Program-made: the position numbers and the translations under genes | Part shown: piece after piece, positions 28,090 through 45,845 of the stretch | Numbering within the stretch: the first letter of the stretch is position 1 | How the letters are laid out: each line of letters opens with the position of its first letter | The notes under the pieces: generated by a model | Database searches by the model: none | Seen by the model: the letters and a program-made list of their open reading frames with translations, nothing else | Told to the model about the DNA's origin: nothing | From: a virus | Direction: 5' to 3' (one strand) | IMG/VR virus record: IMGVR_UViG_3300018414_000011 | Span: 1-45,845 of that record | Length of the DNA stretch: 45,845 bases

Positions 28090-28644
28090 CTATATCCCAT
28101 GGCTTGTTGTATATCCAGCACCTTCAGATATCAACTTAGCCACTTCTTTATTTCTTTTATCACAAGCCATCTTAAAAGCTACATCATATCCGTATTTATT
28201 TGTGTTGAAATATGCAGCTTTTCTTTTACAATTTATAGTAGCCCAAGTCGCACAAAAATATAAAACCCCTCCCATAACTATTTTTCTAACTCCCGTAACT
28301 CCAGTTTTATTGTTAGAGTATTTTCCAGAATTTCTTTTATTTTCCGTGTTAGTCACTAATCTTAGATTTTCTATAGAGTTATTAGATTTATTTCTGTCTA
28401 TATGGTCTACTTGCATACCGATAGGTATTTCTCCCATCAACATTTCCCAGACTACTCTGTGGCATGTGTATTGTCTCTTTTTGTGCAGAACTTTCCAATA
28501 TCCTTTAATAGTTTTATTGGTTCCAGCTCTATCACCTTTCTTTATGCGAAGAACTTTATAATGCCCACCAGACCAAATATCGATCTTCCAAATCAAGCCA
28601 CTAGGAGACTTAGGGTAATACTCAAACACATCGTTAAAATTCAT
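28090..28644 (-). CDS. Free-standing HNH-AP2 homing endonuclease
   Basis: 184 aa from the ATG behind AAAGGTG. HNH core: YTCHRVVWEMLMGEIPIGMQ, then VDHIDRNKSNNSIENLRLV. It is followed by an AP2-type DNA-binding domain (KTGVTGVRKIVMG, YFCATWATINCKRKAAYFNT). This matches phage homing nucleases that nick a phage-lacking allele and spread by repair. The neighbouring SSB frame is intact, so it is not within an intron. It has its own promoter upstream. Confidence 0.9.
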   Translation of the reverse strand: MNFNDVFEYYPKSPSGLIWKIDIWSGGHYKVLRIKKGDRAGTNKTIKGYWKVLHKKRQYTCHRVVWEMLMGEIPIGMQVDHIDRNKSNNSIENLRLVTNTENKRNSGKYSNNKTGVTGVRKIVMGGVLYFCATWATINCKRKAAYFNTNKYGYDVAFKMACDKRNKEVAKLISEGAGYTTSHGI

Positions 28645-28731
28645 GTAAAGCACCTTTCAAATAAATTATAAAATTATTATTTGTTAGCCATGCTTTTGCA
28701 CTAATCCACTTGGAGTTGTCTTTTGAGGCTT

Positions 28732-35409: not shown

Positions 35410-35745
35410 TTAGTTCCTCTCATTTATAAAATTAGCAGCATAAATACGACCGTCACAGAGACAATCATCCATATCTAATGCATAAAAATCTTCCAAGCTC
35501 CTGTCAGCAATCCTGTTCAAAGCTTCTTGTTCCAGCACATCTGCCATAAGCTTCTTCATAGCTTTCTGAACTTTCACCATAGAAGCTATATCTTTCTTAC
35601 GTTTTTTAATTTTAATTCTATTCTGTGCCCAGCTACTAGGACGTACAGTGCTCATGTAGTAGAGGAATTTTATAGACTCCTCTAAATTACGTATCCCTGC
35701 GCTATTCTTAGCAATTTGGGATTGCAGGATTGGGATGCTAATCAT
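35410..35745 (-). CDS. Basic helical protein, paralogue of the 34109 gene
   Basis: 111 aa from the ATG behind AAAGGAGAATTC; the in-frame TTG at 35808 is the -35 box of the promoter and not a start. Helical and Lys-rich in the middle (RIKIKKRKKDIASMVKVQKA), acidic end. See the 34109 gene for the similarity. First gene of its own transcription unit. Confidence 0.65.
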   Translation of the reverse strand: MISIPILQSQIAKNSAGIRNLEESIKFLYYMSTVRPSSWAQNRIKIKKRKKDIASMVKVQKAMKKLMADVLEQEALNRIADRSLEDFYALDMDDCLCDGRIYAANFINERN

Positions 35746-35767: not shown

Positions 35768-35808
35768 TTGACAGAAGCTATTATGGAGGAAGTGGGAGCT
35801 TCTGTCAA
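35768..35808 (-). promoter_or_regulatory. 12-bp perfect inverted repeat spanning a promoter
   Basis: TTGACAGAAGCT (35768-35779) and AGCTTCTGTCAA (35797-35808) with a 17-bp centre. One arm carries the -35 box, the other lies at the transcription start. No U-run on either side, so an operator is more likely than a terminator. Confidence 0.6.
35780..35808 (-). promoter_or_regulatory. Sigma70 promoter downstream of the helicase gene
   Basis: Minus strand: TTGACA (35808-35803), 17-bp spacer, CATAAT (35785-35780). It starts just 11 bp after the helicase stop and drives the row of small genes to its left. Confidence 0.75.
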
Positions 35809-44324: not shown

Positions 44325-44975
44325 TCATTTCTCCTTGTTATTCAAAATTTGCGCTGCCTGTGCATTATAACGTAATTCATATTCTTGTAAAGCTTTTTCT
44401 TCAGAATATCTTGCTTTATACATCCCTATTGTCTTTAATGACAGATCATACTTCATTCCCACTTGAACTTGAGTTTTTCCAGAGTTTAAATCTTCTATGA
44501 TTTTTCGTAAAACATCTGGAGGGGTTGAAAGGGGCTTACCAAGGATTGTGCCGTTTGCAGCAGTGCGTTTTAGCCCTTGACGCACATTCTCAGATAATTC
44601 TTCAAGATATGTTTCTGCCATGCCTGCTAACACCAATACTAAAATCTTTCCTGCTGGAGAGTTACAGTCTGCTCCTCCGATTTCGAGAATACGCAATACG
44701 ACTTGTTTCTCTTTGAATTTCTTTATCATTCCAAGTGTATCTATCACATCTCGGCCTAGACGTGATACCGACTTCAGAACAACTGTGTCAAAGGGTTGAA
44801 GTTTGTCAAACATCCCCTTAAATGCTGGACGTTCTAACGCAGGAGTGGAGCCGGATACAGCATGTTCTACAACCCATTCATCAACATGAAATCCTGCTTG
44901 TTTTATTGCATGTTTCTGAGTGTCTGTAGTTTGACCTAAATCTGTGCTCACTCGCATATAACTGTAAATAGTCAT
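44325..44975 (-). CDS. Serine recombinase (resolvase/invertase type)
   Basis: 216 aa. N-terminal catalytic domain: YSYMRVSTDLGQTTDTQKHA with Arg8 and nucleophile Ser10, AVSGSTPALERPAF, VVLKSVSRLGRDVIDTLGMI, AGKILVLVLAGMAETYLEEL, then a C-terminal helix-turn-helix (KIIEDLNSGKTQVQVGMKYD). Size and layout fit small resolvases and invertases such as Tn3 resolvase or Gin, not large integrases. Target site unknown. It stands first in its unit behind a perfect promoter and inverted repeat. Confidence 0.92.
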   Translation of the reverse strand: MTIYSYMRVSTDLGQTTDTQKHAIKQAGFHVDEWVVEHAVSGSTPALERPAFKGMFDKLQPFDTVVLKSVSRLGRDVIDTLGMIKKFKEKQVVLRILEIGGADCNSPAGKILVLVLAGMAETYLEELSENVRQGLKRTAANGTILGKPLSTPPDVLRKIIEDLNSGKTQVQVGMKYDLSLKTIGMYKARYSEEKALQEYELRYNAQAAQILNNKEK

Positions 44976-44980
44976 AACAA

Positions 44981-45014
44981 AATCCCTTCAAAGTTTTTAC
45001 TCAATGAAGGGATT
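44981..45014 (-). promoter_or_regulatory. 10-bp perfect inverted repeat at the recombinase start
   Basis: AATCCCTTCA (44981-44990) and TGAAGGGATT (45005-45014), 14 bp apart. One arm overlaps the -10 box, the other contains the GAAGGGA ribosome site of the recombinase. It could be an operator, or the recombinase's own binding site. An RNA hairpin is unlikely, since most of the arm near -10 is upstream of the predicted start. Confidence 0.7.
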
Positions 45015-45040
45015 ATAGAGTGCATAAGTTACACTGTCAA
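45012..45040 (-). promoter_or_regulatory. Perfect sigma70 promoter of the recombinase gene
   Basis: Minus strand: TTGACA (45040-45035), 17-bp spacer, TATAAT (45017-45012). All 12 consensus bases match with optimal spacing. Confidence 0.88.
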
Positions 45041-45046
45041 CTGCTT

Positions 45047-45193
45047 TTAAAGAAATCTTCCATCCTTTGTTACTTCTTCTAACTGCTTTGTCCATTTGTA
45101 AGGAAGAATAAAACAATTTCTTCCTTCTTGGTCGAGACGTTCCCAATCTTCATCGGACAAGTTAAAATGTCTCTTAATATCTTCATCGTTCAT
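45047..45193 (-). CDS. 48-aa protein, unknown
   Basis: ATG at 45193 overlaps the upstream stop as ATGA; TAA at 45047-45049, just before the recombinase promoter. Sequence MNDEDIKRHFNLSDEDWERL, acidic and helical, then CFILPYKWTKQLEEVTKDGR. Possible small regulator; no family recognised. Confidence 0.6.
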   Translation of the reverse strand: MNDEDIKRHFNLSDEDWERLDQEGRNCFILPYKWTKQLEEVTKDGRFL

Positions 45194-45845
45194 TTCAAGC
45201 CCTCCAAAGCCTTTAACACTCTAGCCTTATCATACTCTACACCATCAATTATAATCATCTCTGGAGGCGTTTCTACAGCTTCTAGAGAGTATGTTGTAGT
45301 GGCTTTGAGGGTGTATTCTTGTCGGCCATCTTTTTCAAAATATGAGTTATAACTACCATAGGTAATTTTTCCGTTGTCATTAGTATATAAGTATTCGCAG
45401 TTATACTCGTTCAGTTCATGTTGATCTCCACTTTGCCACCAACACCCTAATGAAAACAAATACGCTTGAATCTGCTTAGAATACCCAAGTGAAAACAAAT
45501 ACTCTTGAATCTGCTTAGAATGCTCAGGAGAGTTTACACGGAATTTCATGCTTTTGAATTCTTGTATTTCTGTTACCTTTACAGGTTCCTTGTAAACAAC
45601 CCAAGTCCCGTCTTTTAAGAATTTGTCAACTGACTCTTCACCATACTCCATACAACCTTCCGACCCCCATCTTACAATGTAGCCATAAAATGACGAATAT
45701 AAGCTATATACTTCTCCGTCACCGTCTACTACCCATACCCCATCACTCTCTATGTGAGCTACTTTGTATTTCTCACCAAGAGCCAAATCCCATTCAGTTT
45801 CACCTGTGTAAATAACGTAATCTCCTACGTTCAGTATTTTAATAC
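45190..45845 (-). CDS. SH3-like protein with internal tandem duplication (5' end outside window)
   Basis: The frame stays open to the right edge, adding ILNVGDYVIYTGETEWDLAL before the first in-window TTG, so the gene is cut by the window. N-terminal SH3-like barrel (VGDYVIYTG, LGEKYKVAHIESDGVWVVDG). A central domain MKFRVNSPEHSKQIQEYLFS ends in WWQSGDQHELNEYNCEYLYT. The helix SKQIQxYLFSLG is present twice in tandem from a 39-bp duplication. C-terminal IIIDGVEYDKARVLKALEG. Function unknown. Confidence 0.7.
   Translation of the reverse strand, partial: IKILNVGDYVIYTGETEWDLALGEKYKVAHIESDGVWVVDGDGEVYSLYSSFYGYIVRWGSEGCMEYGEESVDKFLKDGTWVVYKEPVKVTEIQEFKSMKFRVNSPEHSKQIQEYLFSLGYSKQIQAYLFSLGCWWQSGDQHELNEYNCEYLYTNDNGKITYGSYNSYFEKDGRQEYTLKATTTYSLEAVETPPEMIIIDGVEYDKARVLKALEGLK
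45444..45521 (-). repeat. 39-bp tandem duplication inside the SH3-like gene
   Basis: Units 45444-45482 and 45483-45521 differ at three of 39 positions. The frame is kept; each unit encodes 13 residues, SKQIQ(E/A)YLFSLG plus Tyr or Cys. A recent slip or unequal exchange event. Confidence 0.9.

Follow-up and report, generated by a model that had tools for sequence, protein, structure and literature searches.

The perfect 10-bp inverted repeat between the promoter and the start codon of a small serine recombinase gene probably encodes an RNA hairpin that sequesters the gene's ribosome site and whose 5′ side also holds the sigma70 promoter of the gene. The gene lies on the minus strand at the right end of the window, the IMG/VR phage record of 45,845 nt (45.8 kb). 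The window is kin to a set of phages, about 82-92 kb in size, with which it has DNA polymerase A in common; it also encodes a primase/helicase, a ligase, a ribonucleotide reductase and ThyX, and it probably amounts to about half of a genome. The features of the locus are collected in Table 1.

Table 1. Features of the recombinase locus, in window coordinates
Feature	Position	Strand	Remarks
-35 hexamer TTGACA	45035-45040	minus	sequence and scan
-10 hexamer TATAAT	45012-45017	minus	sequence and scan
5′ arm AATCCCTTCA	45005-45014	minus	-10/start-point region; ends at predicted start point
Predicted transcription start	45005	minus	A of initiator CAT; inferred, leaders compared by eye
3′ arm TGAAGGGATT	44981-44990	minus	contains Shine-Dalgarno AAGGGA
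Small serine recombinase, 216 aa	44325-44975	minus	Resolvase N-terminal domain PF00239, E 4e-30
48-aa ORF	45047-45193	minus	co-directional; ends 6 nt before -35 box
217-aa ORF	45190-45843	minus	next co-directional ORF upstream; runs off window end

Promoter, repeat and predicted fold

A sequence-only reading of this DNA had described a perfect consensus promoter with 17-bp spacing and a perfect 10-bp inverted repeat running from the -10 box to the ribosome site. Both are confirmed. The promoter matches 12/12 bases of the sigma70 consensus with a 17-nt spacer (TTGACA-17-TATAAT, 45040-45012, minus strand), and the arms pair perfectly over 10 bp around a 14-nt loop (45014-45005/44990-44981). The exact string TTGACA-N17-TATAAT occurs twice in the window, as compared to 0.01 times in shuffled sequences; the other copy is at 1914-1942 on the plus strand, and 28799-28770 holds one more 12/12 promoter, whose spacer is 18 nt long. 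The perfect promoters are genuine, yet that of the recombinase is one of three 12/12 promoters in the window. The further argument that so strong a promoter needs repression does not follow, as the window's other perfect promoters lack such a repeat.

The 5′ arm opens with the last three bases of the -10 hexamer, and the Shine-Dalgarno sequence within the 3′ arm (44988-44983) lies 7 nt before the ATG at 44975. A 10-bp repeat as such is not rare: three perfect repeats with arms of at least 10 bp and loops of at most 30 nt are present in the whole window, versus 1.7 expected. It is the placement that stands out. The -10/+1 segment pairs with the start region better than do all 2000 shuffled versions of it (z -4.7, p <0.0005), and the pairing beats about 99% of mispaired promoter/start combinations, drawn mostly from related phages (p 0.009). 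The RNA fold of the recombinase leader has a z of -4.1, and the leader hairpin has no match in Rfam. These position-specific values bear on the simplest alternative, namely that a consensus promoter and a Shine-Dalgarno sequence are present and the complement of the latter happens to follow the -10 box. Perfect 10-bp repeats by themselves should arise about twice per window, and the hairpin is not conserved among the recombinase's relatives; both points speak for chance and against the hairpin model. However, the shuffle and mispairing results, together with the recurrence of the pairing at mobile endonuclease genes described below, make coincidence highly improbable.

The position of the 5′ arm relative to transcription is central to the hairpin model. 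In most of the recombinase's relatives, a CAT initiator comes directly after the -10 box, and on this basis the window start was placed near A45005, where the 5′ arm ends. With the -10 box ending at 45012 and the arm spanning 45014-45005, the promoter is sited so that the transcript from its predicted start lacks the 5′ arm. Since this arm precedes the predicted start point, the hairpin can form on readthrough messages only. In the predicted fold, the stem covers the Shine-Dalgarno sequence, whose predicted unpaired probability is 0.04 on long transcripts at every upstream length tested (40-200 nt) and 0.53 when transcription starts at the gene's own promoter. Messages running in from the co-directional genes upstream would carry both arms, fold, and hide the Shine-Dalgarno sequence, leaving the recombinase untranslated. 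The transcript from the gene's own promoter, beginning at about A45005, would lack nine of the ten 5′-arm bases and be translated. In this way, operon readthrough would yield no recombinase, and its synthesis would depend on the firing of the gene's own promoter. Such readthrough is suggested by the gene order and by the absence of a predicted terminator between the 48-aa ORF and the recombinase gene.

The recombinase and its relatives

By sequence, the protein's membership in the small serine recombinases is not in doubt. Its best solved relatives are the DNA invertase 4m6f and gamma-delta resolvase. Residues S10, R8, R49, R72 and R75 are invariant in the family alignment, and equivalents of the serine nucleophile and of R8, R45, R68 and R71 of gamma-delta are present in the window recombinase. 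The equivalents of gamma-delta D36 and D67 are H38 (44862-44864) and S71 (44763-44765), and an Asp at position 71 is retained in all other aligned family members. Because H38 and S71 replace the usual acidic residues, the activity of the recombinase is uncertain. The same two small genes (p133 and p127) lie downstream of the recombinase in the window, G002 and G029, with the recombinase/p133/p127 order spanning the record ends in G029. This shared neighborhood makes the recombinase look like a resident gene of the phage lineage. Separately, a related phage carries two adjacent Resolvase-domain genes of a type unlike the window's (G001:12211-13299).

A single-sequence search returned no close relatives of the recombinase, a scan of genome contigs gave distant resolvases only, and relatives surfaced only when an alignment was used. 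Eleven loci in phage contigs encode proteins 35-41% identical to the window recombinase, and a wider scan added a twelfth locus, L103. Over 13 recombinase leaders, hairpin conservation has a combined z of -0.7; it is strong in the window only and marginal in L054 and L058. Family-wide conservation was accordingly dropped as an argument. The idea that the hairpin substitutes for a missing terminator was also set aside, as the pattern is not clean: L053, L054 and L058 have divergent upstream ORFs. L057, L059 and L060 have terminator-like hairpins upstream of the recombinase and no start hairpin.

Most of the relatives have a sigma70-like promoter about 60 nt before the start codon (about 60-70 nt at the loci with promoter dyads), and in six of them (L053, L055, L057-L060) a TCCCA-N17-20-TGGGA dyad flanks the -35 box. 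At this position, other relatives carry arms of a different sequence: ATTTCCT/AGGAAAT in L054, TGTTGGAAA/TTTCCAACA in L109 and TGTTCATAA/TTATGAACA in L112. These dyads are centered on the -35 box and measure about 28-36 bp, and each promoter's own arms match better than swapped ones (p 0.0007; p 0.006 with one locus per clade). Clade-specific dyads of this kind are what recombinase autoregulation would look like, with a putative binding protein. Clade-specific -35 dyads were also seen at the serine recombinase genes of L109, L111, L112, L114 and L115; additional TTCTAACA-like half-sites, perhaps making up a multi-subsite res, are present in L109, L111 and L115. In L053, a pair of 15-bp direct repeats (GTGTTTGAGCAATAT, period 21 bp) lies upstream of the recombinase promoter (2371-2406) and may provide accessory binding sites.

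Operator and crossover-site alternatives

The relatives' dyads raise the possibility that the window repeat is a DNA operator, with the recombinase or another dimeric repressor binding the arms and blocking polymerase at the -10/start region in negative autoregulation. The coordinated change of the dyad arms between clades is consistent with such control, as is the published autoregulation of the Tn3 small serine recombinase, which acts through res (PMC7157771). The L056 dyad (AACCGTTAA..TTAACCGTT, -42 to -12) occupies the same place as the window repeat, and T4 I-TevI, which represses its own promoter, combines a hairpin with autorepression (PMC2988022). However, the dyads of the homologous genes or family members (L053, L055, L057-L060, L109-L115) sit on the -35 box rather than the ribosome site, and no such dyad is found at the -35 box of the window (p 0.61), nor at those of L051 and L052. 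The TCCC/GGGA resemblance of the window repeat to the relatives' dyads is explained by the Shine-Dalgarno sequence itself, and the exact coincidence of one arm with the ribosome site is not something an operator would predict. The sequence-only reading had held that small serine recombinases can bind their own promoter regions and that this repeat may be both operator and res-like site. The general part gains support from Tn3 and from the dyad-marked promoters of the relatives; its application to this repeat is weakened by the missing -35 dyad and by the coincidence of the repeat with the Shine-Dalgarno sequence. The operator/res reading is plausible for the recombinase family and second best for the window repeat, for which we consider an operator rather unlikely.

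The two functions could also coexist, with the hairpin acting on readthrough messages and an operator acting on the gene's own promoter. The I-TevI precedent is published (PMC2988022), and L053, L054 and L058 have a -35 dyad as well as some pairing between the start-point region and the Shine-Dalgarno sequence. That pairing is marginal or not significant, however, and the window lacks the -35 dyad, so a dual role appears very doubtful.

A res- or hix-like crossover site for the inversion or resolution of phage DNA by the recombinase would fit the 34-bp total span and dyad form of the repeat, which match a serine-recombinase dimer site, and the adjoining recombinase gene. Such a site had been proposed together with a crossover partner, to be sought as another copy of the 10-bp arm; yet neither the exact arm nor the full repeat has a second copy in the 45.8-kb window, which is probably about half a genome. 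The relatives' TCCCA-N-TGGGA dyad is single-copy in 6/6 records that carry it at the promoter (three of them fragments), no tandem subsites lie beside the window repeat, and the window's only perfect inverted repeat longer than 20 bp (28985/29667) does not resemble it. The exact 34-mer is in no viral contig scanned, a set that possibly excludes the window's own record. A crossover function is exceedingly improbable.

Two other repeats in the window were recorded. The perfect 22-bp inverted repeat TATTCTATTGTGCGAATTTCCA (28985-29006/29646-29667), with copies 639 nt apart inside coding sequence, flanks two small ORFs and is far beyond chance. It is a candidate invertible segment or inverted duplication, and no nucleotide relative was found for a comparison of orientation. 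It was considered as the recombinase's invertible segment and rejected, as it has no sequence link to the promoter repeat. At 35768-35808, a perfect 12-bp inverted repeat (TTGACAGAAGCT/AGCTTCTGTCAA) has a left arm that begins with a -35 box and a right arm lying past CATAAT, the -10 box of a promoter that serves the ORF starting at 35743. This repeat looks like a DNA operator, and no counterpart was seen downstream of the helicase gene in relatives.

Recurrence at mobile genes and relation to known systems

Pairing between the -10 region and the start region recurs in related phages. HNH_3 genes were sought in 28 records, and three have their own promoter of at least 10/12 consensus bases close by: L231 (G009) and L244 and L245 (both G023). 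In all 3/3, the -10 region pairs with the Shine-Dalgarno sequence, the start codon, or both, with mispairing p values of 0.003, 0.021 and 0.009, respectively. In L245, the stem GGTATAATCCT/AGGATTATGCC pairs the -10 box with the Shine-Dalgarno sequence and the start codon. In L244, the start region is predicted to be no more open on the short transcript (0.35 versus 0.34), which speaks against the hairpin model. Similar pairing is seen at one more gene, L196:4155, which is HNH-like and has a 12/12 promoter, and at two genes of unknown function (L207:4340 and L214:18106). L231 was found through the HNH search alone, whereas the p values of L244, L245 and L196 are partly post hoc, these loci having been noticed in pairing scans before that search. 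Two side observations concern genes of this kind. The L245 frame (G023, about 47.1 kb) seems shifted at a ATATATAT run just after the start, reflecting either sequencing error or decay. In the window, an HNH_3 homing-endonuclease-like gene (28090-28653) has a leader of about 110 nt from the 12/12 promoter at 28799-28770.

Across 160 promoter/ORF pairs from 16 related phages, with the window excluded, strong pairings of -10 kcal/mol or below number 7 versus 2.9 (p 0.02), and the enrichment has p values of 0.02-0.07 at thresholds of -10 to -12 kcal/mol. Strong pairings occur at non-mobile genes too, which counts against the hairpin model. Because the genome-wide enrichment is modest, any general claim rests mainly on the mobile genes. 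We tentatively suggest, as a possibility we would not yet favor, that the mobile DNA-cutting and -rearranging genes of this phage group travel with a compact module in which the sigma70 -10 region is antisense to the gene's own ribosome site or start codon. One short sequence would then be both the on-switch and a lock against readthrough from host operons, and homing endonucleases as well as the serine recombinase of the window would have acquired it.

A promoter-in-hairpin arrangement is known from T4 I-TevI, I-TevII, I-TevIII and segB and from Aeh1 mobE, with late or middle promoters (PMC2988022). T4 genes e, soc and 49 have a similar arrangement; for gene e, long transcripts are blocked about 100-fold and short ones are translated, and a review reports no such structure for gene e of Felix O1 (PMC3014915). 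As in the T4 homing-endonuclease hairpins, the window stem would hide the ribosome site on transcripts initiated upstream, the promoter in its 5′ side would let the gene's own transcript escape, and the target is a gene for a DNA-acting enzyme that would lie within other transcription units. The T4 gene e leader follows the same logic; it serves a lysis gene with late promoters. Unlike the T4 set, in which late or middle promoters set the timing, the window has a consensus sigma70 promoter with its -10 box in the stem, and unlike the T4 homing-endonuclease genes, the gene encodes a serine recombinase. The window device would thus work like the I-TevI and gene e type, and because its embedded promoter is sigma70 rather than late or middle, we call it a variant and not a strict member of the T4 set. 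Like tnpR of Tn3 and gamma-delta, the gene encodes a small serine recombinase, and its repeat may be a dyad at its own promoter. The Tn3 dyads bind protein, and the res of Tn3 and gamma-delta has three subsites that hold promoters, whereas the window has a single repeat that reaches from the -10 box to the ribosome site, with no subsites.

A serine recombinase under this device, with a sigma70 promoter contributing to the stem, is a new form of an arrangement already known; a narrow literature search found no paper describing the device at a site-specific recombinase. If the hairpin model is correct, the T4 "promoter in the hairpin" device would extend beyond T4-type phages and homing endonucleases, reaching a site-specific recombinase under a host-type promoter. 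It would also supply a rule that can be scanned for, complementarity between a -10 region and the start region of its gene, with which phage genes insulated from readthrough may be found. Dyads at phage promoters should then be tested as RNA before they are named operators.
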